This document shows positions 9,099 to 48,155 of a stretch of 64,000 nucleotides of DNA, in pieces (the first letter of the stretch is position 1; each line of letters begins with the position of its first letter). The notes beneath the pieces are model-generated. The model searched no databases, had not been told where the DNA came from, and saw only the letters and a program-made list of their open reading frames with translations. The translations under genes and the position numbers were made by a program. The stretch is from Aquitalea magnusonii (lineage in GTDB: Bacteria; Pseudomonadota; Gammaproteobacteria; Burkholderiales; Chromobacteriaceae). The stretch lies in contig NZ_AP018823.1 in NCBI RefSeq assembly GCF_002217795.2, positions 3,410,001 to 3,474,000 of the forward strand, given 5' to 3'.

Positions 9099-9280
9099 CA
9101 TCCGCTCACGCGGATGGTGGTTTACATGCCGCTTCCACGCGGGGGACGGGATGCGTGTTTGCTTGGCGACGTTATTGGCGCCAGCACGTAGGGCGGAAGC
9201 CCCAGCCTTACCGGGGCGTTCCGCCGTCATGCGGACCATCCCTGCACACAACACAAAATCAATTGTTCGGACTGTAGAAA
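9099..9280 (+). repeat. Truncated repeat A (9099-9151) plus repeat D (9185-9277)
   Basis: The first 53 bp match the left end of repeat A (CATCCGCTCACGCGGAT, then GCCGCTTCC). They run into a D element: a GC hairpin around CGTAGGGCGGAAGCCCCAGC, then a tail with CAATTGTTCGGACTG. The same D-A order, inverted, recurs at 44949-45327 and 46825-47118. The 8880-9098 stretch before it is the fdhA upstream region and shows no gene. Confidence 0.75.
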
Positions 9281-9520
9281 TCCGCTGCGCGGATAATGAT
9301 TTGCATGCCGCTTCCGCGCGGCGGACGGGAAAGAGGGCTTGCCTGGCCAATCCCTCCTTCACCTCCAAGGCCACCCCACAAGCATGGCCTGCGGCTGCCC
9401 GACAGGTCCCGACCGAGGCGAGGCGCGCCTGAACTCGCGATTTGCTAACGTCAAATCGCTCAAACATTGCAGGCGCTTAAGACCTCGCCCCGGCCACCCG
9501 TCGGCATGCTTGACGGGGCC
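9281..9520 (+). repeat. Repeat A, copy 1
   Basis: A full element: hairpin ATCCGC/GCGGAT, GCCGC hairpin, GAGGG hairpin (one mismatched region in this copy), then the three-helix core and a closing CCCGTC...GACGGG hairpin. In this copy the core stems are GGCGAGG/CCTCGCC, GCGCCTG/CAGGCGC and GCGATTTG/CAAATCGC around the loop CTAACGT. These differ pairwise from copies 2-4. Confidence 0.85.
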
Positions 9521-9547
9521 CAAGGGGCGCGTTGGTGCGGTGCTTAT

Positions 9548-9632
9548 CTGATCAGTAACACCTGTCGGAGCTGGCCCAGTCCCGTCAGCGCGAGCCGACG
9601 CAGACGTGCCGCTCAGGGTTTTAAGCGGTTTG
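9548..9632 (+). repeat. Repeat C, truncated copy 1
   Basis: Carries the C left flank (ACACCTGTCGGAG, CCCGTCAGCGCGAGCCGAC) and the start of its core (GCTCAGGGTTTTAAGCGG), then breaks off into unrelated sequence before the next A copy. Confidence 0.7.
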
Positions 9633-9660
9633 ATCTTGGCGGCGATAACCCAGTGTGGGA

Positions 9661-9903
9661 ATCCGCTCACACGGATGATGGTTTACATGCCGCTTCCGCG
9701 CGGCGGACGGGAAAGAGGGCTTGCCTGGCCAAGCCCTCCTTCACCTCCAAGGCCACCCCAGCAAGCATGGCCTGCGGCTGCCCGACAGCACCTGACACTG
9801 CTGCGGCACGGCTGAAACTCGCGATTGGCTAACGTCCAATCGCTCAGACAGCCAGCCGCTTAAAACCGCAGCAGCGTCACCCGTCGGCATGCTTGACGGG
9901 GGC
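9661..9903 (+). repeat. Repeat A, copy 2
   Basis: Full element. Core stems are CTGCTGCGG/CCGCAGCAG, CGGCTG/CAGCCG and GCGATTGG/CCAATCGC with loop CTAACGT, closed by CCCGTC...GACGGG. Confidence 0.85.
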
Positions 9904-9965
9904 CGGGGGTGGCATCGGTACGGTGGTTTTCCTGCTGAGAAGATGGATTTATTCGGGAGCGTTTC

Positions 9966-10049
9966 GCGGTGGATCGCCCCTGCGGGGCATCCACCCTACG
10001 GGGTAGGTACGTAGGGCGGAAGCCCCTGCCTTAGCGGGGCGTTCCGCCA
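9966..10049 (+). repeat. Repeat D, copy 2
   Basis: Two GC hairpins (GATCGCCCCTGCGGGGCATC and GCGGAAGCCCC...GGGGCGTTCCGC) typical of D. The flanks 9904-9965 and 10050-10099 hold no gene. Confidence 0.65.
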
Positions 10050-10099
10050 CGGTGCATCCATCGCCAGAGAAATCCCCCGAAAGCAGTACGATCATTTTC

Positions 10100-10365
10100 T
10101 TCTCAGAAACACCTGTCGGAGCCGCCCCAGTCCCGTCAGCGCGAGCCGACGCAGACGTGCCACACAGGGTCTTAAGCGGTCGGCTGTCCGCAGCGGCGCG
10201 ACGTTAGCGCGCCGCAAGTTCCGGCCGCGCCCTGAGTGGCATGGCTGGGGCGGGAATTCGACGCGCTGCGGGTCGCCTTTTCTTTGGGTACTTTCTTTTG
10301 GCGAAGCAAAAGTAAAGTACCTCGACGGCGGGGCGAGACCCGCGAAGTTGTTTTTGTCTTTGCTT
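10100..10365 (+). repeat. Repeat C, copy 2
   Basis: Core with GCGGCGCG-type inner stem, followed by hairpin GTACTTTC...GAAAGTAC-like around GGCGAAGC and CGGCGGGGCGAGACCCGCG. The linker to the next A (TTTGCTTTTCGATGGTTTTC, positions 10361-10385) is shared with C copy 5, not with C copies 3 or 4. Confidence 0.85.
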
Positions 10366-10398
10366 TTCGATGGTTTTCTTGATGCACAAAGGGCAAGC

Positions 10399-10640
10399 AT
10401 CCGCTACGCGGATGATGATTTACATGCCGCTTCCGCGCGGCGGACGGGAAAGGGATCTTTGCTTGGCCAAAGATCCCTTTCATCCCTAAAGGCCACCCAG
10501 CAAGCATGGCCTGCGGCTACCCTCCGGGACCTGACACTGCTGCGGCACGGCTGGAACTCGCGATTGGCTAACGTCCAATCGCTCAAACAGCCAGCCGCTT
10601 AAAACCGCAGCAGCGCCACCCGTCGGCATGCTTGACGGGG
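10399..10640 (+). repeat. Repeat A, copy 3 (variant third hairpin)
   Basis: Full element in which the hairpin that reads GAGGGCTTG/CAAGCCCTC in other copies is GGGATCTTTG/CAAAGATCCC. Both arms changed and the pairing is kept, direct evidence for selection on structure. Confidence 0.85.
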
Positions 10641-10672
10641 CCCTTGGGCACGTCGGTACGGTGCTTATCTGA

Positions 10673-11371
10673 TCAAGAACACCTTGGCGTTGGTGCGCAG
10701 CCTTCCGCCGCCTCCACCCGCCACGCCTGTTTGTTCATCCGTCTGGCCAATAGCTGATGGCAAGCCTCCGCCAGCCGCAGCAGCTCGGCATTGCTGCTGG
10801 GCAAACCATCCGGCGCGGCAATGTGCTGGGCCAAAGCCTGCAAAGGCGTGGCCTGACTGTTGAGCGCCACCAGTCGGCCATGTGCATGGCGGCTGGCGTG
10901 GTTGGGGGTGTAATGCAGCGTCAGCAGCCAATGGCCGTGCTGCCAGCCTTGTCCCTGTTCCAGTACCGCACGTAATACCGCATGGCTGATCTGCTGCCCG
11001 GCCTCGGCGGCCATGGCCAGTGCCTGGTCGTGGCGTGGTGCGTCGCTTGGGCGCTGATGCAGGGCGGGGAGGACTTGGCGGTTCAGCCAGTGGCGCAGCC
11101 GTTGTGCGGCTGGGCGTCTGCATTGGCGCAGTGCCTGTTGCAGGGTGTTTTCCGGCAAGTATTGTGGCGGGTTGTCGTGTGGTGGGTGTTTACAGCAGGG
11201 GTGTTGTTGCAGGATGTGTTGCAGCCGATGGCGCAGGCGTGGGCCGAATAGTTGCAGGATATCGTCGCCGTGCAGGCAGCAGGTGTGGGGGTGGAGGTGC
11301 AGGCGGATGGGTTTGCCGAGGTAGAACAGGGTAAGGGGTGGGGGAATGGCTGATGGTGAGTTTTGTGTCAT
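10673..11371 (-). CDS. BRO-N/phage antirepressor-like protein, paralogue 1
   Basis: A 232-residue protein with PPLTLFYLGKPIRLHLH, a DDILQLFG segment and AAQRLRHWLNRQVLPALHQ. That last stretch resembles the RKPEA..F..W...EVLP.I motif of BRO-N/antirepressor domains. A paralogue lies at 48472-49176 on the other strand (about 60% identical by eye). The start at 11371 is chosen by alignment to that paralogue and GGAG upstream; the frame extends 8 codons further. The two genes also share about 150 bp of upstream sequence. It sits directly after repeat A copy 3. DNA binding is plausible; function unknown. Confidence 0.6.
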   Translation of the reverse strand: MTQNSPSAIPPPLTLFYLGKPIRLHLHPHTCCLHGDDILQLFGPRLRHRLQHILQQHPCCKHPPHDNPPQYLPENTLQQALRQCRRPAAQRLRHWLNRQVLPALHQRPSDAPRHDQALAMAAEAGQQISHAVLRAVLEQGQGWQHGHWLLTLHYTPNHASRHAHGRLVALNSQATPLQALAQHIAAPDGLPSSNAELLRLAEACHQLLARRMNKQAWRVEAAEGCAPTPRCS

Positions 11372-11404
11372 GGGGCTGATCTCCAATTTCACCAACTAGA
11401 TATA

Positions 11405-11420
11405 CAGGTCGCCAAACCTG
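11405..11420 (-). promoter_or_regulatory. Inverted repeat shared by both BRO-N-like leaders
   Basis: CAGGT-CGCCAA-ACCTG, 34 bp before the start of the minus-strand gene. The identical sequence in inverse orientation lies at 48260-48275 before the paralogue. A candidate operator or RNA hairpin. Confidence 0.5.
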
Positions 11421-11524
11421 ATTGCGCCTGGTGGCGCAACTGGGTAAGGCTAATCAGCGTTGTTGGCAGCAGCAAGGGTGGAGGGACACGGAAACACTGG
11501 CATGTGGTGCAGGTAAGGGGTTTG

Positions 11525-11765
11525 AATCCGCTGCGCGGATAATGATTTGCATGCCGCTTCCGCGCGGCGAACGGGAAAGAGGGCTTGCCTGGCCAAGCCC
11601 TCCTTCACCTCCAAGGCCACCCCACAAGCATGGCCTGCGGCTGCCCTCCGGGGCCTGACACTGCTGCGGCACGGCTGGAACTCGCGATTGGCTAACGTCC
11701 AATCGCTCAAACAGCCAGCCGCTTAAAACCGCAGCAGCGCCACCCGTCGGCATGCTTGACGGGGC
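11525..11765 (+). repeat. Repeat A, copy 4 (left border of module 1)
   Basis: Full element with core stems as in copy 2. It is followed by element B, then the first cargo block. Confidence 0.85.
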
Positions 11766-11785
11766 TGGTGGGCGCGTTGGTGCGG

Positions 11786-11880
11786 TGGGGAATTCAGTAG
11801 ATAAGTAGATAAGTAGATAAGTAGATAAGTAGATAAGAAGATTTCGGATGCTACCGAATAGATTTCTGCTTACGACCCAA
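11786..11880 (+). repeat. Repeat B, copy 1, with octamer tandem repeat
   Basis: GGAATTCAG, a tandem array of five GTAGATAA units at 11797-11836, then CGGATGCTACCGAATAGATT and TCTGCTTACGACCCA. B copies 2 and 3 (14304-14390, 16008-16075) have one equivalent unit (GCAGATAAG). B always joins the end of repeat A to cargo. Confidence 0.8.
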
Positions 11881-11910
11881 ACCAGAAGGTAGGTTTCGGG
11901 GAAAGCGGAC

Positions 11911-11965
11911 GTTTAACGATTTGACTTGAAGCGACGGCACCGTCAGCTTCAACTGTTTGTTAGCC
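11911..11965 (-). repeat. Integron attC-like site 1
   Basis: Read on the minus strand it begins GGCTAAC and ends GTTAAAC (close to RYYYAAC...GTTRRRY). Between them TTGAAGC-GACGG pairs with CCGTC-GCTTCAA, leaving one extra unpaired A on one arm. Its 55-bp length, the simple sites at both ends and the extrahelical base are hallmarks of integron attC (59-base) sites. It lies downstream of the cargo genes on their strand, where an attC belongs. 11966-12115 between it and the next gene shows nothing I recognise. Confidence 0.6.
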
Positions 11966-12115
11966 AGCGGACAACCAAAGTTCAGCTTCATCGAGATACG
12001 TACGCAGGGACTCGGCGACCTTGAGTGTTGTGGAGTCATTATCAAACCGAAACCATTATCCGTCGGAACCCGGTCGAGGCGAGCCAAGCCGGTGTCGATG
12101 GTCCGGGGGCAGGTA

Positions 12116-12586
12116 TTATCGCTCCGCTCTCGTAAAGTGTTCATAGCGGCCAAAATCGGGGAAATGTTCCCAATTGCCACTCACGTCAGCGGAACTGCTT
12201 GAGGTTTCGAGGCTATGCACAGGAACGAAGCCTTCTCTACTAATCGTGAGCGTTCCGTCCGGCTGGAACAAATACGCTGTTCCTTTACTGACCTTGTCGC
12301 TGTTGCCTTCAAATTCTCTCCACGTTGCCATTGAGAGGAACAGCTTGCCAGGCTGTTTTTCTTGAAAAGCGTAAGTCAGATACTCTCTAAGTGCTTCATC
12401 TAGGAAGCCTACTCCGACAAAGCCGTGTTTTATTTCGAGGAAACATGTGGGGCTAGCGACTGGCCCGATGAGAGCGCAATACAGCTCGCCTTTTAGATGA
12501 AGGGCTTGGGCCTGTTCATAGGTATAAGCCTCCAAGGATAGCTTCTTGGCCCGGAACCACCCCTTGCAGAAAGAAACAGTGCTCAT
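12116..12586 (-). CDS. Hypothetical cargo protein
   Basis: A 156-residue soluble protein with no signal peptide or membrane segment and no family I recognise. Segments such as YEQAQALHLKGELYCALIG and GKLFLSMATWREF suggest a mixed alpha/beta domain. AGGT lies 6 bp before the ATG. It follows the next cargo gene (12606-13040) by 19 bp, so both are probably in one transcript. Its base composition is lower in GC than the backbone. Confidence 0.6.
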   Translation of the reverse strand: MSTVSFCKGWFRAKKLSLEAYTYEQAQALHLKGELYCALIGPVASPTCFLEIKHGFVGVGFLDEALREYLTYAFQEKQPGKLFLSMATWREFEGNSDKVSKGTAYLFQPDGTLTISREGFVPVHSLETSSSSADVSGNWEHFPDFGRYEHFTRAER

Positions 12587-12605
12587 TTGTACCTGCTAAC
12601 AGTGT

Positions 12606-13040
12606 TTAGTCGCGTAGTGGTTTAATGGCGAATAAAAGTTGAGAAACCTCTGCATTAAGAAACCCCTTGTCCTGTAGTCCGAGAGACTTGCGTATATCGA
12701 TAACGAAGCGCGTGAATGCAAGAATCTCCGATTCGGTTTCAAGTGTTGCGCCGGCGGCCCAGAAAGTAGCGAGTCGTTTGACAACTTGCTCTTCACCGAA
12801 CATGCAGATGCGCGTTTTTGCGTGAGTGAGCTTAGCAAGCTGTTCCAATTCCTGTTCTTTTTTTCCAAGGCGTTGAGCCGAAACCACAAGAGAAACGGCC
12901 TCAAAGAAATCGATATAGGCTTGGTTACGAGATTCGAGAAGTTGTTTCGCCTCGTTGTTCTGCCGTGCAAGGTAGTTCTGCAAGAACGCACCGACTACGA
13001 CACCAAGAATTGATAACAGCGAAGCAATTGCAACGGTCAT
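12606..13040 (-). CDS. Membrane-anchored hypothetical cargo protein
   Basis: 144 residues: an N-terminal hydrophobic helix (about residues 3-25, ASLLSILGVVVGAFLQNYL) followed by a charged, helical cytoplasmic part. GGAG sits 6 bp upstream of the ATG. The arrangement (single N-terminal anchor plus short coiled domain) is frequent among small proteins of integron cassettes and defence islands. No family recognised. Confidence 0.6.
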   Translation of the reverse strand: MTVAIASLLSILGVVVGAFLQNYLARQNNEAKQLLESRNQAYIDFFEAVSLVVSAQRLGKKEQELEQLAKLTHAKTRICMFGEEQVVKRLATFWAAGATLETESEILAFTRFVIDIRKSLGLQDKGFLNAEVSQLLFAIKPLRD

Positions 13041-13055
13041 AAATACTCCGTAAAC

Positions 13056-13142
13056 GGCTAACGTAGTGCTAACCGGTACTGCGCGGCTTTATTGCGCAGC
13101 GTCCTGCGTCCAAGGGCGCGGGGGTGAGTGTTATCGTTAGGT
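13056..13142 (-). repeat. Integron attC-like site 2
   Basis: Minus strand: starts ACCTAACG and ends CGTTAGCC, with partly complementary inner arms (TAACACTCACC against GGTTAGCACTA) and a GC-rich centre containing GCGCAATAAAGCCGCGC. About 87 bp long. It lies between two minus-strand cargo genes, as between consecutive cassettes. Confidence 0.5.
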
Positions 13143-13146
13143 ATGG

Positions 13147-13488
13147 TTATGGGGTAATGCGCGAATTGTCTGAAACCGCGAAGGCAACCCATCCGGATGG
13201 ACAGCAAACGCTTGTGAGTTGCTTTTGAAAATGGGCCTCGCCCTGCGGATCCCATGACGGCCCAAAACGAAGTGATAGATGTGCTGATTCAACAGGCTGG
13301 CCACTTAGCGAAAGCTCAACCGAATAGTCCCCCCCTTGAAGAAACGCTCCTTCCAAGCAGCCAGGAAATGTGGAATTGAAGAGTTGCGACACTACCTCGA
13401 AGCTACCAAGTGGGGATACCGTTTCGACCTCAGCGAGGTTTTCTACCGCCAGCCTCGACGGTTTAAGAACGATGATGTCAAAGCTCAT
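13147..13488 (-). CDS. Hypothetical cargo protein
   Basis: 113 residues beginning MSFDIIVLKPS, acidic and soluble, with a predicted beta-rich middle (YSVELSLSGQPVESAHLSL). I recognise no family; proteins with this kind of start are common in environmental cassettes, which is only an impression. A GTTAGGC core (13497-13503) lies 8 bp before the ATG, as expected at a cassette 5' boundary, and no clear Shine-Dalgarno is present. Confidence 0.55.
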   Translation of the reverse strand: MSFDIIVLKPSRLAVENLAEVETVSPLGSFEVVSQLFNSTFPGCLEGAFLQGGDYSVELSLSGQPVESAHLSLRFGPSWDPQGEAHFQKQLTSVCCPSGWVAFAVSDNSRITP

Positions 13489-13496
13489 TTCAGGCT

Positions 13497-13545
13497 GCCT
13501 AACGGTTATTCACGAGCAGAAACGTCCGGGTTATTGCCAAAAATA
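13497..13545 (-). repeat. Incomplete attC-like site with GTTAGGC core
   Basis: On the minus strand a perfect GTTAGGC (fits GTTRRRY) precedes the gene at 13488. A possible stem GGACG/CGTCC lies upstream, but no matching RYYYAAC box is visible. Probably the 3' half of a decayed site. Confidence 0.35.
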
Positions 13546-13670
13546 TGGACGCGCTTGAGACCCCTATAACATTTTTAACGACATAGAGATTATCCCTCGC
13601 AAGTCTCCTTATCAATCGTCAATCATACTGACAGGGCCAGTGTCTGCTCAGCGATTCATTCTTGGGAGTC

Positions 13671-14004
13671 CGCTCCTGGCCGACACCAGTCATGCTAGCA
13701 CGTTGGCATGGAGAAAATCTTGACCTGTATTGGTGACGGTCCAGACAGTGATCCGTTATCGCAAGACCGTACCAACGAAACCTGCTCCCGTCAGCGCGAG
13801 CCGACACAGGCGTGCCGCTCAGGGTTTTAAGCGGTCGGCGGTCCGAAGCGGCGCGACGCTAGCGCGCCGCAAGTTCCGGCCGCGCCCTGAGCGGTGCGGC
13901 TGGGGCGGGAATTCGACGCGCTGCGGGTCGCCTTTTCTTTGGGTACTTTCTTTTTGGCGAAGCAAAAGAAAGTACCTCGACGGCGGGGCGAGACCCGCGA
14001 AGTT
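13671..14004 (+). repeat. Repeat C, copy 3 (right border of module 1)
   Basis: An extended C with a 115-bp left part (TCCTGGCC, then GCTAGCACGTTGGCATGGAG) found only in copies 3, 4 and 5, that is, only next to cargo. Core stems: GCTCAGGG/CCCTGAGC, GCGGTCGG/CCGGCCGC and GCGGCGCG/CGCGCCGC. Then a hairpin TACTTTC...GAAAGTA around GGCGAAGC. 13505-13670 holds no gene. Confidence 0.85.
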
Positions 14005-14063
14005 AAACGCAGTGGCTCAGGATGAAAATCGGGTTGCCATTACCAAGTCAAAACAGGCTTTGT

Positions 14064-14303
14064 ATCCGCTCACGCGGATGATGGTTTACATGCCGCTTCC
14101 GCGCGGCGGACGGGAAAGAGGGCTTGCCTGGCCAAGCCCTCCTTCACCTCCAAGGCCACCCCACAAGCATGGCCTGCGGCTGCCCGACAGGCCCCGTCCG
14201 GAGCGAGGCGCGCCTGAACTCGCGATTTGCTAACGTCAAATCGCTCAAACAGGGCAGGCGCTTAACACCTCGCCCCGGCCACCCGTCGGCATGCTTGACG
14301 GGG
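14064..14303 (+). repeat. Repeat A, copy 5 (left border of module 2)
   Basis: Full element with core stems of the copy-1 type (GCGAGG..., GCGCCTG/CAGGCGC, GCGATTTG/CAAATCGC). The 14005-14063 linker from C copy 3 is unique in this window. Confidence 0.85.
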
Positions 14304-14390
14304 CCCATGGGCGCGTTGGTGCGGTGGGGAATTCAGCAGATAAGATGATTCCGGATGCCACCAAATAGATTTCTGCTTACGACCCAAAGC
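14304..14390 (+). repeat. Repeat B, copy 2
   Basis: GGGGAATTCAGCAGATAAGA, then CGGATGCCACCAAATAGATT and TCTGCTTACGACCCAAA. Joins repeat A copy 5 to cargo 2. Confidence 0.75.
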
Positions 14391-14429
14391 GGACGTTGCT
14401 GTCACGAAGTGAAGATTGCGCCAAGATGG

Positions 14430-14621: not shown

Positions 14622-14712
14622 CGAATTCGAAGCTACTTAGTCATTACAGGTTATCTTGCTGAAATAACCATGCCCACGCTGAGGTCCGGCTCTGGCCGAC
14701 TCCAGTCGGTGC

Positions 14713-15331: not shown

Positions 15332-15370
15332 ATTTTCCTGTCCAGTTTAAGACCATCCTTCATCGACGAC

Positions 15371-15702
15371 CGCTCCTGGCCGATACCAGTCATGCTAGCA
15401 CGTTGGCATGGAGAAAATCTTGACCTGTATTGGTGACGGTCCAGACAGTGATCCGTTATCGCAAGACCGTACCAGCGAAACCTGCTCCCGTCAGCGCGAG
15501 CCGACACAGGCGTGCTGCCCAAGGTTTTAAGCGGCTGCATGTTTGAGCACCGTGACGGTAGCACGGTGCGAGTTCAGCCGCGCCTTGGGCAGGATGGCAG
15601 CAGCGGGAATCCGACGCGCTGCGGGTCGCCTTTTCTTTGGGTACTTTCTTTTGGCGAAGCAAAAGTAAAGTACCTCGACGGCGGGGCGAGACCCGCGAAG
15701 TT
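15371..15702 (+). repeat. Repeat C, copy 4 (compensatory variant)
   Basis: Extended C whose core stems are GCCCAAGG/CCTTGGGC, GCGGCTG/CAGCCGC and GCACCGTG/CACGGTGC. Relative to copy 3 about seven base pairs changed on both strands with pairing intact, while TTTTAAG and the ACGNTAG loop stayed. The 15703-15752 linker matches the inverted 47586-47636 stretch. Confidence 0.88.
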
Positions 15703-15752: not shown

Positions 15753-15994
15753 TATCCGCTCACGCGGATGATGATTTACATGCCGCTTCCGCGCGGCGGA
15801 CGGGAAAGAGGGCTTGCCTGGCCAAGCCCTCCTTCACCTCCAAGGCCACCCCACAAGCATGGCCTGCGGCTGCCCTCCGGGGCCTGACACTGCTGCGGCA
15901 CGGCTGGAACTCGCGATTGGCTTACGTCCAATCGCTCAGACAGCCAGCCGCTTAAAACCGCAGCAGCGCCACCCGTCGGCATGCTTGACGGGGC
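15753..15994 (+). repeat. Repeat A, copy 6 (left border of module 3)
   Basis: Full element, core stems of the copy-2 type, with loop CTTACGT. Together with the preceding linker and the end of C copy 4 it is nearly identical to the inverted block 47346-47700. Confidence 0.85.
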
Positions 15995-16007
15995 CAAGGG
16001 TGGCGTC

Positions 16008-16075
16008 GGTGCGGTGGGAATCCAGCAGATAAGACGATTCCGGATGCCACCAAATAGATTTCTGCTTACGACCCA
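16008..16075 (+). repeat. Repeat B, copy 3
   Basis: GTGGGAATCCAGCAGATAAG, CGGATGCCACCAAATAGATT, TCTGCTTACGACCCA. Joins A copy 6 to cargo 3. The 16076-16198 stretch after it shows no gene. Confidence 0.75.
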
Positions 16076-17221: not shown

Positions 17222-17227
17222 TGCACC

Positions 17228-17234: not shown

Positions 17235-17300
17235 GACCTTGTGGATTCGTCGCCACATTCTGCGGTGGACCCATTGTAATCACAAGACAGCGAAGGTCAG

Positions 17301-17699
17301 CTCCTAGCCGATACCAGTCATGCTAGCACATTGGCATGGAGAAAATCTTGACCGGTATTGGTGACGGTCCAGACAGTAATCCGTTATCGCAAGACCGTAC
17401 CAACGAAACCTGCTCCCGTCAGCGCGAGCCGACGCAGACGTGCCGCTCAGGGTCTTAAGCGGTCGGCTGTCCGCAGCGGCGCGACGCTAGCGCGCCGCAA
17501 GTTCCGGCCGCGCCCTGAGTGGCATGGCTGGGGCGGGAATTCGACGCGCTGCGGGTCGCCTTTTCTTTGGGTACTTTCTTTTTGGCGAAGCAAAAGAAAG
17601 TACCTCGACAGCGGGGCGAGACCCGCGATTTGTTTTTGCCTTTGCTTTTCGATGGTTTTCTTGATGCACAAAGAACAAACATCCGCTGACGCGGATGAT
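17301..17699 (+). repeat. Repeat C, copy 5, with truncated A start
   Basis: Extended C (17301-17630) with the same core as copy 2, a linker like copy 2's, then only the first hairpin of repeat A (ATCCGCTGACGCGGAT, about 17680-17696). The A element ends there and the choX terminator region begins. Right end of the left repeat block. Confidence 0.8.
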
Positions 17700-17747
17700 A
17701 AGAACACAGGTCGGAACCGCCATAGGCTGCACACCAGCCCCCCAAGC

Positions 17748-17775
17748 GAAAGCCCCGACCAGAGCCGGGGCTTTC
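17748..17775 (-). terminator. Terminator-like hairpin downstream of choX
   Basis: GAAAGCCCCG...CGGGGCTTTC, a 10-bp stem 22 bp after the choX stop. The T tract is short on the minus strand. Confidence 0.65.
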
Positions 17776-17796
17776 AAAGGTGCGCTACCGATTAAA

Positions 17797-18735
17797 TCAG
17801 TGGCCCAGTGCCTTGTTCACTGCAGCCAGGCCCGGCTTGCCATCCAGCGTGGTGACACCGGCCAGCCAGGTTTTCAGGATGTCCGGGTTCTTCTTCAGGT
17901 AATCACGCGCGGCGGTTTCCGGCTTCACCTTGTCCATGATCGGGCCCATCACGCGGTTTTCGATGGTGGTGGTGAAGCGCAGGTTATGCAGCAGCTTGCC
18001 CACATTCGGACAGCGGGTTTCGTAATCCGGGCTGATGGCGGTGAATACCTTGGCTTCACCCAGGTTGGGGCCGAATACATCGTCGCCGCCGGTCAGGTAG
18101 GCCATCTTGTATTTCACGTTCATCGGGTGCGGTTCCCAGCCCAGGAACACGATCCACTTTTTCTGGCGGATGGAGCGTTCCACTTCGGCCAGCATGCCGG
18201 CCTCACTGGATTCCACCATCTTGAAACCGGCCAGGTTGAACTGGTTTTTCTTGATCATGCCGTCAATCAGCAGATTGCCGTCATTACCCGGCTCGATACC
18301 GTAGATCTTGCCGTCCAGCTTGTCCTTGAACTTGGCAATGTCCTTGAAATCCTTCAGGCCACCGGCAGCCACGTAGTCCGGCACTGCCAGCGTGTACTTG
18401 GCGCCCACCAGGTTGGGGGTGTCCAGTACCTTGATCTGGCCAGCCTTGACGAAGGGCTCGATCACCGGGGTCATGGACGGGTTCCAGTAACCCAGGAACA
18501 CGTCGATCTGCTTGCTCTTGATGCCGGAAAAGGTGATGGGCACCGAGGCGATGGTGGTGGTCGGCTTGTAGCCCAGGCCTTCCAGTACCACGCTGGCCAT
18601 GCCGGTGGTGGCGGCGATATCGGTCCAGCCTACATCGGCGAAACGGACATTGCGGCATTGCGCCGGGTCATTGGCCAGCGCGCTGCCACAGGCAGCCAGC
18701 AATACCGAACCCAGCATCAGCTTGCGAATTTTCAT
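17797..18735 (-). CDS. choX: Choline/betaine ABC transporter, periplasmic binding protein
   Basis: 312 residues with a signal peptide (MKIRKLMLGSVLLAACGSALA). It belongs to the ProX/OpuAC type 2 periplasmic-binding family; features such as VRFADVGWTDIAATTGMAS, FLGYWNPSMTP and FLGWEPHPMN (aromatic cage-type tryptophans) resemble ChoX/CbcX. It delivers choline or betaine to the ChoW-ChoV permease. It is separated from gbdR by a terminator (18913-18950), so it probably has its own promoter in the 241-bp gap. Choline versus betaine preference cannot be read from the sequence. Confidence 0.88.
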   Translation of the reverse strand: MKIRKLMLGSVLLAACGSALANDPAQCRNVRFADVGWTDIAATTGMASVVLEGLGYKPTTTIASVPITFSGIKSKQIDVFLGYWNPSMTPVIEPFVKAGQIKVLDTPNLVGAKYTLAVPDYVAAGGLKDFKDIAKFKDKLDGKIYGIEPGNDGNLLIDGMIKKNQFNLAGFKMVESSEAGMLAEVERSIRQKKWIVFLGWEPHPMNVKYKMAYLTGGDDVFGPNLGEAKVFTAISPDYETRCPNVGKLLHNLRFTTTIENRVMGPIMDKVKPETAARDYLKKNPDILKTWLAGVTTLDGKPGLAAVNKALGH

Positions 18736-40774: not shown

Positions 40775-40784
40775 AAGCCTCTCC

Positions 40785-42269: not shown

Positions 42270-43136
42270 ATGAAAGCCACTGCACCGTCCTACATCCTCA
42301 GCTTCACCTGCCACAGTGCCTCCGGTCAGGTGGCCCGTTTCTCCGCCCTGCTGGAATCCCAGGGCTGTTATATCGACGAACTGGCCGTGTTTGACGATGC
42401 CGTCAGCCAGCGCTTTTTCGTGCGTTGCGTATTCCACCCGCAAACCGAGGTGTTCGACCCGGCGCGGCTGAACCAGGGCATGCGCGACATGGGCAGCCAC
42501 TACCAGGACCTGCGCTGGCAATTGCAGGACCGGCGCGAACAGGCGCGGGTGATGATCATGGTGTCCAAGCTGGACCACTGTCTGAATGACTTGCTGTACC
42601 GGCAGAAAATGGGCGATCTGGACATGACCGTCACCGCCGTGGTGTCCAACCACCGCGACCTGGCCCCGATTGCCGAAGCCTATGGCCTGCCCTTCCACCA
42701 CCTGCCGCTGGACCCGGCCAACAAGGCCGAGCAGGAATCCGCCCTGCTGGCGCTGATCGAGGAAACCGGCTCGGAACTGGTGATTCTGGCGCGCTACATG
42801 CAGGTGCTCACCAGCGCCACCTGTGCCCGCCTGTCCGGCCGCGCCATCAACATCCACCACTCCTTCCTGCCCGGCTTCAAGGGTGCCCGCCCCTATCTGC
42901 AAGCGCATGAGCGCGGGGTAAAGCTGATTGGCGCCACTGCCCACTACATTACCGACGATCTGGACGAAGGCCCCATCATCGAACAGGTGGTGGACCGGGT
43001 AGACCACGCCTACACCCCGGAAGACCTGCAAGCCACCGGCCGCGACATGGAATGCCAGGCGCTGGCCCGCGCGGTGCGCTACCACCTGGAGCGCCGGGTG
43101 TTCCTCAATGACAACCGCACGGTGGTGCTGCGCTAG
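42270..43136 (+). CDS. purU: Formyltetrahydrofolate deformylase
   Basis: 288 residues. N-terminal ACT domain (about 9-85) and C-terminal formyltransferase-fold domain with INIHHSFLPGFKGARPY and HYITDDLDEGPIIEQ (catalytic Asn/His/Asp region). Hydrolyses 10-formyl-THF to formate and THF, recycling the folate charged by SoxA; the formate then goes to FdsGBAD. Divergent from soxB; good AAGGAAAG upstream. Confidence 0.93.
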   Translation: MKATAPSYILSFTCHSASGQVARFSALLESQGCYIDELAVFDDAVSQRFFVRCVFHPQTEVFDPARLNQGMRDMGSHYQDLRWQLQDRREQARVMIMVSKLDHCLNDLLYRQKMGDLDMTVTAVVSNHRDLAPIAEAYGLPFHHLPLDPANKAEQESALLALIEETGSELVILARYMQVLTSATCARLSGRAINIHHSFLPGFKGARPYLQAHERGVKLIGATAHYITDDLDEGPIIEQVVDRVDHAYTPEDLQATGRDMECQALARAVRYHLERRVFLNDNRTVVLR

Positions 43137-43364
43137 TCATATCTTCCACGGGTATAGGCAGGCAAGGTCCTCCACCCTGCTTGCCAATATCTGGCAGCCA
43201 GGCCACACAGCAGCCCTGGTGCATAGTCCGCTACTCTGGCGTCCACGCGACATTCACTTTGAGTAAGATGGGAAGCTCCGTGCCTGATGGCTGACAAGCA
43301 ATCAAAGCTGTTTGCCGCATGGGCAAGGAAACATGACCAGACGCCATGCATGCAGGAGCACACC

Positions 43365-43796
43365 ATGCACAAAGTGAGCGGAGCCTGCCATTGCGGCAAC
43401 ATCCACCTCCAGCTTGAATTAAGCCAGCCACTGGCCGACTACAGTCCCCAGGCTTGTGATTGCGACTTCTGCCGCAAGCACGGGGCGTCCTACCTGTCCG
43501 ACCCGCATGGCAGTTTGCAAATAACGGTGAGCGATGCGGGCGGCTTGGGCAAATACCGGCACGGCAGCCAGACGGCCGACTTCCTGTTCTGCACCCGTTG
43601 CGGCGTGCTGATTGGCGTGTTGTATCAGGATGGCAGCCGCCTGTATGGCACGGTGAATTGCGCGGCCCTGCATGAGGCCGCAGCGCTTGGCACGCCGGTA
43701 TCGGTGTCGCCCAGGTTATTGGCGAGCGGCGAGAAAACAGCCCGCTGGAGCGCGCTGTGGTTTCCGGATGTGCATATCACCACCCAGTCATTCTGA
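43365..43796 (+). CDS. GFA/CENP-V-fold zinc protein
   Basis: 143 residues of the GFA (DUF636) family: GACHCGNIHLQL, ACDCDFCRKHGA and FCTRCGVLIG give the usual zinc cysteines. Related to the formaldehyde-glutathione enzyme Gfa, but most members are not formaldehyde enzymes. Location next to purU and formaldehyde-producing pathway is suggestive only. Start at 43365 has GGAG 7 bp upstream; an ATG at 43287 would add 26 residues. Confidence 0.8.
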   Translation: MHKVSGACHCGNIHLQLELSQPLADYSPQACDCDFCRKHGASYLSDPHGSLQITVSDAGGLGKYRHGSQTADFLFCTRCGVLIGVLYQDGSRLYGTVNCAALHEAAALGTPVSVSPRLLASGEKTARWSALWFPDVHITTQSF

Positions 43797-43831
43797 AACC
43801 TGACACCGGCTTGCCAGGCAATAGCCGGGGC

Positions 43832-44000
43832 GAGGTAAGCAAGCGCCGGTTCTGCTTGAGCGATTTGACCTTGGCAAATCGCGTGTTCAGGCGCGCCTCG
43901 CACCGGGCAGGACCTGTTGGGCAGCCGCAGGCCATACTTGCCTCAGGACCTAAGGGGGGCGGAAGCGGGAACACAAAACATCATCCGCGCTGGGCATGCA
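43832..44000 (-). repeat. Degenerate repeat A (inverted)
   Basis: Weak but clear relic: GCGATTTG...CAAATCGC core stem, GGCGCGCCT, GGCAGCCGCAGGCCAT. The right parts are decayed. First copy of the right-hand block, in inverted orientation relative to the left block. Confidence 0.6.
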
Positions 44001-44049
44001 AACCGGCTTTCCTGCCCTGCTAGCCAAGAGATGACGGCTAGCACAACAC

Positions 44050-44370
44050 TCACATGGCAAACACTTCCTGCAAGGTTTCCAGTGTTGCCTCCAGCGTTTC
44101 GTCCTCCACCTCACCCAGTTTCTTGACCAGCCGTGTCTTGTCCAGCACCCGGATCTGATCCAGCAGAATCAAACCTTGTTTACCCTGAAAGGTAAGCGGT
44201 ATCCGGTATGGTGCTGGTTTGCTGCCGGTAGCCATGGGGGTAACGATGACAGTGCGCAGATAGTCATGCATCTCCGCAGGTGACACCACTACGCAGGGGC
44301 GGGTTTTTCGTATTTCGCTACCCACGGTCGGGTCAAGATTGATCAGCCAGACTTCACCGCGCCTCACCAT
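44050..44370 (-). CDS. mazF: MazF/PemK-family toxin
   Basis: 106 residues: RRGEVWLINLDPTVGSEI and KTRPCVVVSP are the conserved beta-strand region with the catalytic Arg/Thr-Pro turn; LLDQIRVLDKTRL follows. Sequence-specific endoribonuclease. Overlaps the antitoxin gene by 7 bp. Confidence 0.9.
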   Translation of the reverse strand: MVRRGEVWLINLDPTVGSEIRKTRPCVVVSPAEMHDYLRTVIVTPMATGSKPAPYRIPLTFQGKQGLILLDQIRVLDKTRLVKKLGEVEDETLEATLETLQEVFAM

Positions 44371-44612
44371 GTCAGCGCCTCATCACCCTCATTGCCAAAT
44401 TCCGGGCAAACCAGCCCATCGTCTCCGGCCTCTGCCAATGCCTGACTGGCTGCAGCCCAGCCTGCCCGGACTTGTTCTTTGGGTTTGGCAAGCATGATCC
44501 CTTCTGGCGTTACCGTCATTTCGACTTCGCCGTCAAAGCCGAACTGGGTAATCAGCGCCTTGGGGATGATGATTCCCTGGGAGTTGCCCATTTTCCTTAG
44601 CATGGCTTTCAT
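44364..44612 (-). CDS. mazE: MazE-family (AbrB-fold) antitoxin
   Basis: 82 residues: MRKMGNSQGIIIPK-like AbrB swapped-hairpin N-terminus (LRKMGNSQGIIIPKAL), then an acidic C-terminal tail expected to bind MazF. Start ATG at 44612 with GGAG 6 bp upstream, preferred over the adjacent GTG at 44615. The TA pair sits between degraded A and fresh D/A repeats. Confidence 0.9.
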   Translation of the reverse strand: MKAMLRKMGNSQGIIIPKALITQFGFDGEVEMTVTPEGIMLAKPKEQVRAGWAAASQALAEAGDDGLVCPEFGNEGDEALTW

Positions 44613-44801
44613 CACTTACTCCGTGTGTGTGCAGGCAGATCATCCGCCAATGTTATAACTTTGTTATTACAGCAGCAAATACTGCGTGGCAATGTGATAT
44701 GACACCCCACCGACATGCGTCATCAGCACAGATGCAAGTGCTTCAGAGAAGAAAAAGGCCGTGCTGTTTTCGGGAAATTTCTTTGGCAATAGTCGGAACT
44801 G

Positions 44802-44921
44802 CGGCGGAACGCCCCGGTAAGGCTGGGGCTTCCGCCCTACGCGACGACCCGGTAGGGTGGATGCCCCGCAGGGGCGATCCACCGTGAAACGCTCCCGAAT
44901 AAATCCATTTTCTCAGCAGGA
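44802..44921 (-). repeat. Repeat D, copy 3 (inverted)
   Basis: GGCGGAACGCCCCGG...CCGCCCTACG and GATGCCCCGCAGGGGCGATC hairpins, then the GCTCCCGAATAAATCCATTT tail. The inverted tail matches 9950-9966. Confidence 0.7.
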
Positions 44922-44948
44922 AAACCACCGCACCAACTCGCCCACGGG

Positions 44949-45327
44949 CCCCGTCAAGCATGCCGACGGGTGGCGCTGCTGCGGTTTTAAGCGGCTGGCT
45001 GTTTGAGCGATTGGACCTTAGCCAATCGCGAGTTTCAGCCGTGCCGCAGCAGTGTCAGGCCCCGGAGGGACGCCGCAGGCCATGCTTGCCGGGGTGGCCT
45101 TGGAGGTGAAGGAGGGCTTGGCCAGACAAGCCCTCTTTCCCGTCTGCCGCGCGGAAGCGGCAATGCAAAACATCATCCGCGCAGCGGATTTCTGCAGTCC
45201 GAACAATTGGTTTTTTGTTGTGTGCTGGGATGGTCCGCATGACGGCGGAACGCCCCGGTAAGACCGGGGCTTCTGCCCTACGCGCCGACCCCGTAGGGTG
45301 GATGCCCCGCAGGGGCGATCCGCCGAA
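44949..45327 (-). repeat. Repeat A copy 7 (inverted) joined to repeat D copy 4
   Basis: A (44949-45190) with copy-2 type core stems and a full set of hairpins, then D (45195-45327) including CAATTGGTTTTTTG. The A-D junction is the inverted counterpart of 9185-9520. 45328-45433 shows no gene. Confidence 0.82.
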
Positions 45328-45433
45328 ATGAGGAGAAACGAAATACATTGCTTATGCGCAAATACACTGATTTTATTTAATTGGAAAATCATGCAAAAAA
45401 TATGGCAGTGGCTATTGGTAGACAAAAAGCGCA

Positions 45434-45601
45434 GTGCGAGGCCGGATATTTGAAAGTAAAAAATTCCCAGATTTCAATCTTTACATAAAGTACCCGGAAA
45501 GCTTTAATTATGTGAAATTGTCGAACAAGCCAGGCCCTTGGGGGCTTGAATATGCTGGGTATGTGAAAGATGGTCAGGTTGCTTTGAATTGCAGTAACTG
45601 A
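45434..45601 (+). pseudogene. Short gene fragment of unknown origin
   Basis: An AT-rich frame, GTG 45434 to TGA 45601, about 55 residues (KFPDFNLYIKYPESFNYVKL ... DGQVALNCSN). It is cut off on its 5' side by a TAG at 45419-45421, next to repeat D. It looks like the 3' end of a gene of the same foreign-looking segment as the two genes that follow. No family recognised. Confidence 0.35.
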
Positions 45602-45625
45602 AAATGTCTTTTGGGGAAGTGTGTA

Positions 45626-46237
45626 ATGATGTTATGTGGTATCAAGATATTTCTCGCAGGTCTGGCTTTCTATCTGCTTGTTAATGATGTGCCGGCATTT
45701 GCTGCTGCACCTGACTCTGCGACCATCATTGCCGCGGTAGCTGATGGCAATCCATCTACATTGCCTGAAGGCAAGGCACGGATACGATTTTTGGGTCAAA
45801 ACGGCATAGACCTGAGTTTTTATCGAAACCGTACCTGCTATCAGGATGGCTTGTTTGGTCTGAAGGGGGGTGATTCTGTTTCTGGTGGCTTCGGATCCGG
45901 GCTTGCCTCTTTGCTTGGCACCGTCGGAAGTATCGGCATCGGCATGCCTGAAACCAATAGTTCGATGCATCTGCATGACAAAGATCTTATCGGGAGCAAG
46001 GCGTTTTACCGCGAATATGAATTTACAGCCGATGAACCTTTGACCGTGGCAGCAAGGTGGGGAGGGTGTAGCACCCAGGCTCTCACCTTCAAACCAGAAG
46101 CAAACAAGGACTACGAATTCGAAATGACTGAGCAGAACGGTTTGTGTGAGCTGATCGCATCCAGACTCATGGGGACAAGTTCTCCTGCAACCCTGCAACC
46201 GCTGCGAGACTACACAAAGGCTTCGAGATGCCCGTGA
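45626..46237 (+). CDS. Exported hypothetical protein
   Basis: About 203 residues starting MMLCGIKIFLAGLAFYLLVN, an N-terminal signal peptide ending near AFAAA. The mature part has cysteines in RNRTCYQDG, GGCSTQ and NGLCEL and a glycine-rich stretch (GGFGSGLASLLGTVGSIGIG). No family recognised. A TTG at 45611 is an alternative start. Lower GC than the backbone. Overlaps the downstream lipoprotein gene by 10 bp. Confidence 0.65.
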   Translation: MMLCGIKIFLAGLAFYLLVNDVPAFAAAPDSATIIAAVADGNPSTLPEGKARIRFLGQNGIDLSFYRNRTCYQDGLFGLKGGDSVSGGFGSGLASLLGTVGSIGIGMPETNSSMHLHDKDLIGSKAFYREYEFTADEPLTVAARWGGCSTQALTFKPEANKDYEFEMTEQNGLCELIASRLMGTSSPATLQPLRDYTKASRCP

Positions 46238-46815
46238 ACATACGTTACCTTTTCAAAATACCTCTTTGCATGATAGCGGCAGCTCTGCTGCTGACGGCTT
46301 GCTCCACCCAGTCGCAACCCTATCCACGTTACTGGTCGCCGATGGTCTTGAATCAAAAGGAGTGCCCTGACCTATCTGGCCGCTACCAGGTCGACAATTC
46401 TGATTGTCAGGCCCATCAGTGTGAGTCCCTCTATAGCAAATTTCCATCATCTTCAATACCGGACCGGTCATTGCTTCCCGATTTGCGCGAAATTGAGTTA
46501 CAGGGCGTACGTGAAGGACGATTGCAGATTTCATATCCTGCGAAAGATGGCGGACCTGGGGCCACCATCTCGTTGCAGCGTGGTACGGATTTTCAGTGTG
46601 AAAAAGGCCTGTTGGTTTTTGAAACCCCGGGTCGATTCATGGCTGGCGATGGGGCATTCGGACGACAGAATGCACTACGTCGCTATTTTTCTCGCACGAC
46701 AGACGATTCGCTGGTGATGCGGGAGACAGGCTCCTCCGGTGGAGTTGTTTTTCTGATTGTGCCGGTCTATCTCAGTAACGAGACTTGGATGCGCTGGTTG
46801 CCGAGCAGCAAATAG
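46228..46815 (+). CDS. Hypothetical lipoprotein
   Basis: 195 residues; lipobox LLLTAC (Cys at about residue 25) after a hydrophobic signal, so probably outer-membrane anchored. Contains CPDLSGRYQVDNSDCQAH, a 'C-x-DLSG-x-Y' motif common in small bacterial lipoproteins of unknown role. Co-transcribed with the exported protein upstream. The pair sits as a low-GC island between inverted repeats. Confidence 0.7.
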   Translation: MPVNIRYLFKIPLCMIAAALLLTACSTQSQPYPRYWSPMVLNQKECPDLSGRYQVDNSDCQAHQCESLYSKFPSSSIPDRSLLPDLREIELQGVREGRLQISYPAKDGGPGATISLQRGTDFQCEKGLLVFETPGRFMAGDGAFGRQNALRRYFSRTTDDSLVMRETGSSGGVVFLIVPVYLSNETWMRWLPSSK

Positions 46816-46824
46816 AATTGGCCG

Positions 46825-47118
46825 GGATAGCCGTAGGCCATGCTTGCTGGGGTGGCCTGGGAGGTGAAGGAGGGCTTGGCCAGGCAAGCCCTCCTTCCCG
46901 TCCGCCGCGCGGAAGCGGCATGCAAATCATTATCCGCGCAGCGGATTTCTTCAGTCCGAACAATTGGTTTTTTGTTGTGTGCTGGGAAGGTTCGCATGAC
47001 GGCGGAACGCCCCGGTAAGGCTGGGGCTTCCGCCCTACGCATCGACCCCGTAGGGTGGATGCCCCGCAGGGGCGATCCACCGCGAAACCCTCCCGAATAA
47101 ACGCATTTTCCCAGCGAG
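46825..47118 (-). repeat. Partial repeat A (copy 8, inverted) joined to repeat D copy 5
   Basis: Only the hairpin half of A (46825-46950, no three-helix core) followed by D with the CAATTGGTTTTTTG tail and both GC hairpins. It begins 10 bp after the lipoprotein stop. Confidence 0.78.
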
Positions 47119-47146
47119 AAAACCACCGTACCGACACCACCCTAGG

Positions 47147-47323
47147 CCCCGTCAAGCATGCCGACGGGTGGCGCTGCAGCGGTTTTAAGCGGCTGGCTGT
47201 TTGAGCGATTGGACCTTAGCCAATCGCGGGTTCCAGCATGGCGGCGGAACGCCCCGGTAAGGCTGGGGCTTCCGCCCTACGCATCTACCCCGTAGGGTGG
47301 ATGCCCCAAAGGGGCGATCCACC
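47147..47323 (-). repeat. Truncated repeat A (copy 9, inverted) fused to repeat D copy 6
   Basis: The core half of A (CCCCGTCAAGCATGCCGACGG to the GGTTCCAGC, 47147-47236) breaks straight into a D hairpin (47240-47323), a recombination-type junction. Confidence 0.75.
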
Positions 47324-47345
47324 GCACCAACGCGCCCCTTGGGCC

Positions 47346-47585
47346 CCGTCAAGCATGCCGACGGGTGACACTGCTGCGGTTTTAAGCGGCTGGCTGTTTG
47401 AGCGATTGGACGTAAGCCAATCGCGAGTTCCAGCCGTGCCGCAGTAGTGTCAGGTCCCGGAGGGCAGCCGCAGGCCATGCTTGCTGGGGTGGCCTTGGAG
47501 GTGAAGGAGGGCTTGGCCAGGCAAGCCCTCTTTCCCGTCCGCCGCGCGGAAGCGGCAAGACAAAACATCATCCGCGTAGCGGAGA
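47346..47585 (-). repeat. Repeat A, copy 10 (inverted)
   Basis: Full element. With the adjoining linker it is nearly identical, inverted, to 15703-15994. Confidence 0.85.
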
Positions 47586-47636
47586 CTTGGTTCGGTACTC
47601 ACCACCTTAAAACCAACAAAACCAACAGCAAAATCA

Positions 47637-47886
47637 ACTTCGCGGGTCTCGCCCCGCCGTCGAGGTACTTTACTTTTGCTTCGCCAAAAGAAAGTACCCA
47701 AAGAAAAGGCGACCCGCAGCGCGTCGAATTCCCGCCCCAGCCATGCCACTCAGGGCGCGGCCGGAACTTGCGGCGCGCTAGCGTCGCGCCGCTGCGGACA
47801 GCCGACCGCTTAAGACCCTGAGCGGCACGTCTGTGTCGGCTCGCGCTGACGGGACTGGGGCAGCTCCGACAAGTGTTCCTGATCAG
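47637..47886 (-). repeat. Repeat C, copy 6 (inverted)
   Basis: Core stems of the copy 2/3/5 type, plus the GTACTTTC hairpin and the CCTGATCAGAG end typical of C copies 1 and 2. The only full C in the right block. Confidence 0.85.
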
Positions 47887-47914
47887 AGAACCACCGCACC
47901 AACTCGCCCACGGG

Positions 47915-48155
47915 CCCCGTCAAGCATGCCGACGGGTGACACTGCTGCGGTTTTAAGCGGCTGGCTGTTTGAGCGATTGGACGTAAGCCAATCGCGAGTT
48001 CCAGCCGTGCCGCAGCAGTGTCAGGTCCCGGAGGGCAGCCGCAGGCCATGCTTGTGGGGTGGCCTTGGAGGTGAAGGAGGGCTTGGCCAGGCAAGCCCTC
48101 TTTCCCGTCCGCCGCGCGGAAGCGGCATGCAAATCATCATCCGCGTGAGCGGATG
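47915..48155 (-). repeat. Repeat A, copy 11 (inverted)
   Basis: Full element with copy-2 type core. It borders the leader of the second BRO-N-like gene, just as A copies 3 and 4 flank the first. Confidence 0.85.

Follow-up and report, generated by a model that had tools for sequence, protein, structure and literature searches.

A 64,000-nucleotide (nt) stretch of the Aquitalea magnusonii genome (contig NZ_AP018823.1, positions 3,410,001 to 3,474,000; referred to here as the window) carries 16 copies of a structured repeat core, in two types, A and C, whose stems differ from copy to copy by compensatory base changes far beyond chance. The core belongs to a noncoding unit of approximately 250 to 350 nt, made up of nested stems (P1 to P3), further hairpins, and an end hairpin. 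These units are probably copies of a nonautonomous mobile element, the single-stranded fold of which is recognized in trans. An initial annotation of the window had taken the core for the whole element; the unit proved to be larger, with an apparent outer stem, more hairpins, and end repeats.

Both repeat types and all of the stems quoted in that annotation were located. The stem GGCGAGG/CCTCGCC lies at about 9.47 kb, and the next A copy carries CTGCTGCGG/CCGCAGCAG in its place; between the C copies at 13.8 and 15.5 kb, GCTCAGGG is exchanged for GCCCAAGG and GCGGCGCG for GCACCGTG. A covariance model of P1-P2-P3 (R1, 121 positions) matched the window at 16 cores with a cutoff E value of ≤0.1, in agreement with the number first reported, 14 of them scoring 87 to 108 bits and two being degenerate (54 bits at 43811 and 41 bits at 47156) (Table 1). 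Six A copies (256 nt each) and four C copies (300 nt each) occupy 9.1 to 17.7 kb, while further copies are found at 43.8 to 48.2 kb, where the A orientation is reversed relative to the first cluster.

Covariation was measured on a core set compiled from at least 120 genome stretches with the core motif, together with loci from A. magnusonii itself and from its order, which gave 51 representatives, 44 of which were aligned (alignment A2). The seven left out comprised four with foreign or mismatched arms (the second copy of L025, L082, L098, and L133, where L-numbers denote genome stretches or loci and G-numbers the genomes compared), two near-duplicates, and one that was out of register. On the folding strand, the core consists of P1 (25 pairs), a TTTAA bulge, P2 (7 pairs), an internal loop (nnTGTTTGA/GAGTT), P3 (8 pairs), and the loop ACGNTAG. 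Pairing was found in 90.6% of 1,752 cells over the 40 pairs, compared with 64.3% after shuffling, a figure that is raised by dropping the four mismatched-arm representatives and that was scored on the same alignment from which the structure had been defined (column pairs that were more than half paired). Cells changed on both sides numbered 477, compared to 162 after shuffling, and the covariation score was 0.664, compared to 0.186, with none of 500 shuffles reaching it; sliding the partner by 1 to 3 columns gave scores of no more than 0.178. The weakest of the measures was the count of doubly changed pairs (32 of 40, versus 28.0 after shuffling, with one of 500 shuffles as high), and 19 of these 32 pairs contained all four Watson-Crick types. 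The compensatory changes seen between the window copies persisted once more, and more diverse, cores were added. P1 was fully variable in sequence yet paired, P2 and P3 were mostly Watson-Crick, and the unpaired motifs were invariant across the 44 sequences, which represent several genera. Two GA dinucleotides that face each other beside P3 resemble tandem sheared pairs.

Outside the core, a hairpin designated H2 follows downstream, with eight fixed-register pairs that were 90.8% Watson-Crick in 68 distinct copies, compared with 39.8% after shuffling; it was located by a TG/CA closing pair plus a loose hexaloop motif, which lie outside these eight pairs, and the 56 of 182 elements without the motif were left uncounted. 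After H2, most of the copies that were read have a third hairpin (its loop often being GCGGAA, GCGAGA, or CAGC) and then the end hairpin (TCCGCGNAGCGGA). An outer stem, P0, is apparent by eye in alignment A1 (for example, AAGCCTG/CAGGCTT or CAGCGC/GCGCTG) and was not counted in the pairing statistics. Another short palindromic sequence (e.g., CGCTGAGCGAATC...) is inserted in P3 immediately after the ACGTTAGC loop at six loci (L034, L057, L066, L117, L122, and L128).

The mismatches tolerated in the stems indicate which strand folds. Excluding one near-invariant T·G pair, the 44 cores contained 97 G·T and 23 A·C cells, a G·T share of 0.81, whereas 500 shuffles had a mean of 0.59 and a maximum of 0.66. 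By stem, the G·T and A·C counts were 90 and 21 in P1, 4 and 0 in P2, and 3 and 2 in P3, and H2 contributed a further 23 and 13. Therefore, mainly on the evidence of P1, the strand kept foldable is the one reading TTTTAAG...TGTTTGA...ACGNTAG...GAGTT, the complement of the CTTAARACC strand that had initially been read as the folded one. This asymmetry fits RNA and single-stranded DNA alike. The folding strand lay on the negative-GC-skew strand in 51 to 53 of 74 single copies (P of about 0.0003 to 0.0015), which are not fully independent, because several of the loci belong to related species or contain two copies. Along the A. magnusonii genome, the first 1.75 Mb have positive GC skew, the region between 2.0 and 3.5 Mb has negative skew, and the sign is mixed between 3.75 and 4.5 Mb.

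BLAST searches of this genome, which is a single 4.85-Mb contig, returned at least 31 A matches (among the best 40 of 60 candidates) and 16 C matches, counts that include partial matches. The flanks of L198 matched L068, from A. magnusonii, with 91% and 79% identity. The presence of the family in Neisseriales-type genomes, which had been anticipated, was borne out by a motif pattern that matched five of 200 genomes of the order, A. magnusonii included; the reversed pattern matched none. Among the 80 stretches listed of at least 120, pattern matches came from Chromobacterium, Aquitalea, Pseudogulbenkiania, Craterilacuibacter, Chitinibacter, Deefgea, and Rheinheimera. At an E value of ≤1e-6, the covariance model matched at least 18 of the 369 genomes searched in the class, again including A. 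magnusonii, a lower bound given the strict filters and the scoring of at most nine candidates per genome. Overall, the family occurs in Chromobacteriaceae, Chitinibacter, and Rheinheimera, with distant members elsewhere in the class. Those distant members for which the sequence was readable retain TGTYTGAG-hairpin-CGAGTT inside long stems, several of them with a T-rich hairpin downstream. The motif pattern was also present in two viral contigs, and a blastn search of a C copy against plasmid and phage records gave no match.

Units are mostly intergenic and dispersed. From 100 loci searched, 99 of which had matches, 48 adjacent pairs were obtained: 32 divergent, 10 tandem, and 6 convergent, with 117 to 269 nt between the cores in 25 of the divergent pairs. 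When 55 single copies were classed with a simple purpose-made gene caller, 26 lay in tandem gaps, 22 in convergent gaps, and 5 in divergent gaps, and the other 2 fell within a called open reading frame (ORF), against background gaps of 147 tandem, 74 convergent, and 49 divergent. A proposed case of a divergent pair and a single copy at orthologous sites was rejected, the apparent single copy at L075 being a truncated pair.

Three A. magnusonii sites were compared with nine congeners. At locus 1 (4.2068 Mb), G117 is empty, and G570, G565, G566, and G192 carry the unit in the same orientation as A. magnusonii. Of the eight occupied genomes whose sequence was examined at this site, three (G567, G568, and G571) have a reversed interior while the flanks and terminal repeats remain in place; G569, which is broken across two contigs, looks reversed too by BLAST. 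The unit at this site, the best resolved of the three, is bounded by imperfect inverted repeats of roughly 30 bp. The reversed interiors are 97 to 98% alike and 95 to 97% identical to the copy at locus 2 of G567, compared with 85 to 87% identity to the other locus 1 alleles. As they match a different copy, simple flipping in place was rejected, and the event is better described as replacement in the opposite orientation with its junctions in the terminal repeats. One compensatory change in P1 (C-G to T-A) sets G565 and G192 apart from alleles of the same type. Locus 2 (3.7145 Mb) is likewise empty in G117, and its orientation differs among the congeners. Locus 3 (2.7041 Mb) is empty in G565, G570, and G117; nearly the whole unit is missing from G568, and the H2 part is missing from G567 and G569. 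The copies at locus 3 are thus dispensable and decaying. The initial annotation had proposed that the fold is selected, either as RNA or as the single-stranded substrate of an enzyme. The fold is indeed maintained and both options stand, but it is not essential at locus 3, because copies there have decayed by deletion.

In three stretches covering locus 3 (L291, L292, and L297, the last of which ends inside it), an insertion of approximately 110 nt with inverted ends (GCTAACAAAAC...GTTTTGTTAGC) sits at the TTAA bulge of the core; its carriers are G566 and G569 and, up to the end of the contig, G192. It looks like an unrelated element of the kind that targets TTAA/YTAR, so the TTTAA bulge was dropped as a candidate cleavage site for an enzyme acting on the unit.

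Taken as a nonautonomous mobile element, the unit would act through its folded single strand, exposed as DNA at replication or present as RNA, which a protein supplied in trans would bind at the fixed motifs. The terminal repeats would be where copies are exchanged or moved, and either selection or the copying mechanism itself would keep only foldable copies, leaving paired drift in the stems and fixed unpaired motifs. Divergent units flanking unrelated accessory genes, as at 11.6 to 17.5 kb of the window, could then be arrays built by repeated insertion or exchange. Several observations weigh against this explanation. A single core was present at 58 of the 99 loci, and pairing of units is therefore not obligatory. 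Neither the top 25 Pfam nor the top 25 PHROG families of neighboring proteins, ranked by frequency, included a transposase or integrase, and Y1 transposase (PF01797) was found in none of the 10 genus genomes searched, one of which is 61% complete. No target site duplication was resolved, the intergenic sequence of the empty sites at loci 1 and 3 being very diverged, and locus 2 was rejected as a second clean case of reorientation, as its flanks are rearranged. Ordinary gene conversion via the terminal repeats could account for the exchanges, with no enzyme of the element involved. Nearly all of the wobble asymmetry is contributed by P1, with little in P3 or H2, and, if negative skew marks the lagging strand, the skew bias is opposite to that predicted for IS608-type transposition of single-stranded DNA.

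A more specific proposal, which we put forward only tentatively, is that this is a new kind of mobile element that works without Y1. Its structured strand, with the nested core and hexaloop hairpins, would be the substrate or guide of a putative trans-acting enzyme, and exchange of copies in either orientation through the terminal repeats would build the cargo arrays.

It is rather unlikely that the unit is instead a structured noncoding RNA, with the folding strand transcribed to bind a protein or to regulate, and copies spreading as a mobile RNA gene. The fixed internal-loop motifs, the strand-specific wobbles, and the facing GA dinucleotides are what such an RNA might display. Sigma-70-like promoters scoring ≥9 were present in 12 of 155 upstream regions, whereas crude block shuffles averaged 23 (a test of the consensus only), and a promoter upstream of the folding strand was rejected, as there was no excess; T5 runs lay downstream in 40 of 155. 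Also against an RNA are the presence of both orientations, the decay at one site, and the lack of a match at the Rfam gathering score. The claim that no Rfam family corresponds held at this threshold for the window and 16 relative loci, where the only match was C4 RNA beside units. With the limit relaxed to an E value of 10 over 9.0 to 17.8 kb, Rfam returned only Ms_IGR-8 on one core (E value of 1.8) and mir-515 on two copies of H2 (E values of 4.1 and 6.8), all below threshold. Weak similarity to the small RNA sX6 (E value of 0.0046, below gathering) was detected at 17727 to 17800 on the minus strand of the window, over a terminator-like hairpin outside the unit.

The units could also be the long terminal inverted repeats (TIRs) of an element mobilized by a Y1 (HUH) transposase (a TIRtron), the transposase genes being absent from these genomes, but this is improbable. 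Di Nocera et al. 2013 (PMC3733652) describe TIR families as long inverted repeats that are single, dimeric, or clustered, dispersed in the genome and also without a neighboring transposase, a description that fits the inverted units paired around a spacer, the singles and dimers (32 of 48 adjacent pairs divergent and 58 of 99 loci with one core), and the existence of repeat families that have no adjacent gene. According to PMC6006769, some transposases of the Y1 TIR group have a DnaA-like C-terminal domain, and DnaA-box-like sites (TTATCCACA, with ≤1 mismatch) occur in some spacers between divergent units, namely, L028, L064, and L089 of Chromobacterium alkanivorans, L065 of Pseudogulbenkiania subflava, and L114, L122, and L127. 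These are only 7 of 25 short spacers, with five exact sites in four of them, and DnaA boxes were therefore rejected as a general part of the spacer. PF01797 was not found in the genus genomes or in G004 and G054, which have seven and three pattern matches of the unit, respectively. From 12 of the 28 unit-holding genomes, 30 Y1 loci were fetched (of 35 matches listed), and only one (L266) had a unit nearby, a weak one; Y1/RAYT (REP-associated tyrosine transposase, where REP is repetitive extragenic palindrome) was thus rejected as the mover for Aquitalea. The motif GGGGWSAS known from TIRtrons (PMC3733652) is not part of the consensus of alignments A1 and A4, although GGGGACAC occurs beside some Chromobacterium copies. 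The main text of PMC3733652 makes no mention of Chromobacterium, Rheinheimera, Chitinibacter, or the word "compensatory."

That the fold is under no selection is more doubtful still. Covariation would then be a mutational by-product in a decaying repeat, as template switching copies one arm of a palindrome from the other. The initial annotation, in arguing that a neutral repeat would not show such changes, overlooked this kind of correction, which rewrites one arm from its partner. A P1 that is fully variable yet paired, the mostly Watson-Crick P2 and P3, the absence of wobble asymmetry in P3, the hairpin deletions in congeners, and the existence of chimeric copies with mismatched arms (L098 and locus 2 of G570) are all consistent with it. 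Template switching gives no reason for an excess of G·T on one strand, and leaves unexplained both the unpaired motifs that are invariant in 44 sequences from several genera and the separate covarying hairpin H2 with its recurrent loop.

The attC sites of integrons fold as single strands, with structure conserved more than sequence, and carry the end boxes RYYYAAC and GTTRRRY. That the units serve an integron-like or another site-specific recombinase as its recombination sites, with the small accessory genes between them (11.7 to 17.4 kb of the window) as cassettes, is very improbable and was rejected, as these end boxes are not in the unit consensus by eye, the integron integrase model TIGR02249 gave six matches in the A. 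magnusonii genome with none over the cutoff, and single units stand at many chromosomal places.

The mobile-element reading can be placed beside other known repeats. The unit is neither a GTAG REP nor an attC site. It shares an intergenic location, inverted pairs, and high copy number with GTAG REPs, REPINs (REP doublets forming hairpins), and BIMEs (bacterial interspersed mosaic elements) that are associated with RAYTs; GTAG REPs, as described in PMC3733652, are palindromes of 20 to 40 bp with a GTAG tag and a Y1 transposase, whereas the unit is approximately 250 to 350 nt with at least three stems, no fixed GTAG tag, and no Y1 found. MRSC-65-2 is likewise a multicopy, strongly covarying long stem. 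Narunsky et al. 2024 (PMC11109978) describe it as one long stem carrying repeated UYCCGG, represented more than 20,000 times in diverse phyla, and read it as a selfish element that may act as DNA. Judged by that description, the unit is probably distinct, having nested stems and other fixed motifs, and UYCCGG is not fixed in A2. Like miniature inverted-repeat transposable elements (MITEs), the units are noncoding, dispersed, and presumably spread in trans, with inverted terminal repeats (resolved at locus 1 only, with end hairpins at many copies); unlike them, they have a conserved, covarying interior, and no parent transposase was found among Y1 and the flanking genes examined, nor any target duplication. 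The unit works like the mobile or repeat sequence candidates of PMC11109978 and the TIR families of PMC3733652. It behaves like a mobile repeat, with no identity to a named REP or MITE found, and a search of the open-license literature recovered no printed description of it.

Among the neighboring proteins, 131 of 185 matched 122 Pfam families, no family being found in more than three proteins, and there is thus no functional theme. Two of the 131 flanking proteins matched Bro-N/antirepressor families. In 12 of its 15 exact occurrences in unit-holding loci, the 12-mer GGTTTGGCGACC, part of the target of P4-type C4 antisense RNA, was located 198 to 225 nt beyond the 3' side of the core and on its strand; these loci were chosen for holding a unit, and some are relatives rather than independent events. 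The sequence between the unit and GGTTTGGCGACC starts immediately beyond the end hairpin and is mostly homologous from one locus to another. Four of the five copies of AGGTTTGGCGACCTG in the A. magnusonii genome have a unit at this distance; near the fifth, at 4.364 Mb, BLAST gave no A or C match. Rfam places C4 RNA beside units in the window, L047, and L078, and the C4 RNA and c4-a1b1 target of the window were read as remnants of P4-like immunity. The unit might target C4-type immunity loci or travel with them. At L097 (position 3191) and L193 (position 2750), the C4-like target is 390 nt from the core instead of about 220, with approximately 170 nt of other sequence between. Related short genes (PLTLYYLGKPIRLHLH..., by eye) lie just downstream of C4-like targets at L188, L191, L100, L092, and 10673 to 11395 of the window.

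Within the window, the units form a mostly alternating chain of A (minus strand) and C (plus strand) copies, with genes between them at 11.8 to 13.8, 14.3 to 15.5, and 16.0 to 17.4 kb; none of five ORFs tested in or beside the inter-unit stretches of 11.8 to 17.4 kb matched Pfam at an E value of ≤0.01. A short tandem array of AGTAGATA adjoins an A copy at 11788 to 11842. Interspersed with the units are palindromes of the GTAG type (GTAGGGCGGAA...TTCCGCC and GTAGGGTGGAT...ATCCACC; Table 1), and the genome search found no Y1 transposase. At 44060 to 44616 on the minus strand, two small genes resemble, by eye, a putative MazF/PemK-type toxin and AbrB-type antitoxin.

Table 1. Units and associated features of the window (window coordinates; for cores, the strand given is the folding strand, the complement of the CTTAARACC strand)
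Feature	Position	Strand	Score or basis	Repeat
Core, type A	9387..9507	-	R1, 97.9 bits	A, 9288-9543
Core, type A	9770..9890	-	R1, 93.9 bits	A, 9671-9926
Core, type C	10143..10265	+	R1, 95.6 bits	C, 10013-10312
Core, type A	10509..10629	-	R1, 91.5 bits	A, 10410-10665
Core, type A	11633..11753	-	R1, 91.1 bits	A, 11534-11789
Core, type C	13798..13920	+	R1, 96.3 bits	C, 13668-13967
Core, type A	14172..14292	-	R1, 94.9 bits	A, 14073-14328
Core, type C	15498..15618	+	R1, 108.4 bits	C, 15368-15667
Core, type A	15862..15982	-	R1, 87.2 bits	A, 15763-16018
Core, type C	17426..17548	+	R1, 96.3 bits	C, 17296-17595
Core, type A, degenerate	43811..43932	+	R1, 54.3 bits	
Core, type A	44960..45080	+	R1, 86.8 bits	44941-45188
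Core, type A, broken	47156..47271	+	R1, 41.0 bits	47000-47237
Core, type A	47355..47475	+	R1, 90.2 bits	47336-47583
Core, type C	47720..47842	-	R1, 97.9 bits	
Core, type A	47926..48046	+	R1, 92.2 bits	47907-48154
H2 of C copy (GGTACTTTCTTTTTGGCGAAGCAAAAGAAAGTACC)	13942..13976	+	Inverted-repeat pair; H2 covariation in 68 distinct copies	
H2 of A copy (GAAGGAGGGCTTG-GCCAGG-CAAGCCCTCTTTC)	15804..15835	-	Inverted-repeat pair	
Outer end of A copy, H3 (GCCGCGCGGAAGCGGC) and end hairpin (ATCCGCGTGAGCGGAT), adjoining preceding C copy	15754..15799	-	Repeat family, sequence reading	
End hairpin of last C copy (ATCCGCTGACGCGGATGAT), no A copy beyond	17681..17699	+	Sequence reading	
C4 antisense RNA beside unit	48332-48422	+	Rfam, 64.5 bits	
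c4-a1b1 target beside unit, subthreshold	11401-11453	-	Rfam	
GTAG-type palindromes	9186-9225, 9990-10048, 44800-44885, 45237-45326, 46994-47083, 47236-47325			

The unit represents a strongly covarying nucleic acid family that spans several proteobacterial genera and that none of the Rfam models searched matched at threshold. A fold that serves as a substrate would point to a novel transposition or recombination enzyme specific for single strands; an RNA would belong to a new class. In both cases, copies that are replaced and reoriented within the genus provide a natural system in which selection can be set against template-directed copying as the source of covariation in repeats, and this question matters for the interpretation of covariation evidence generally.

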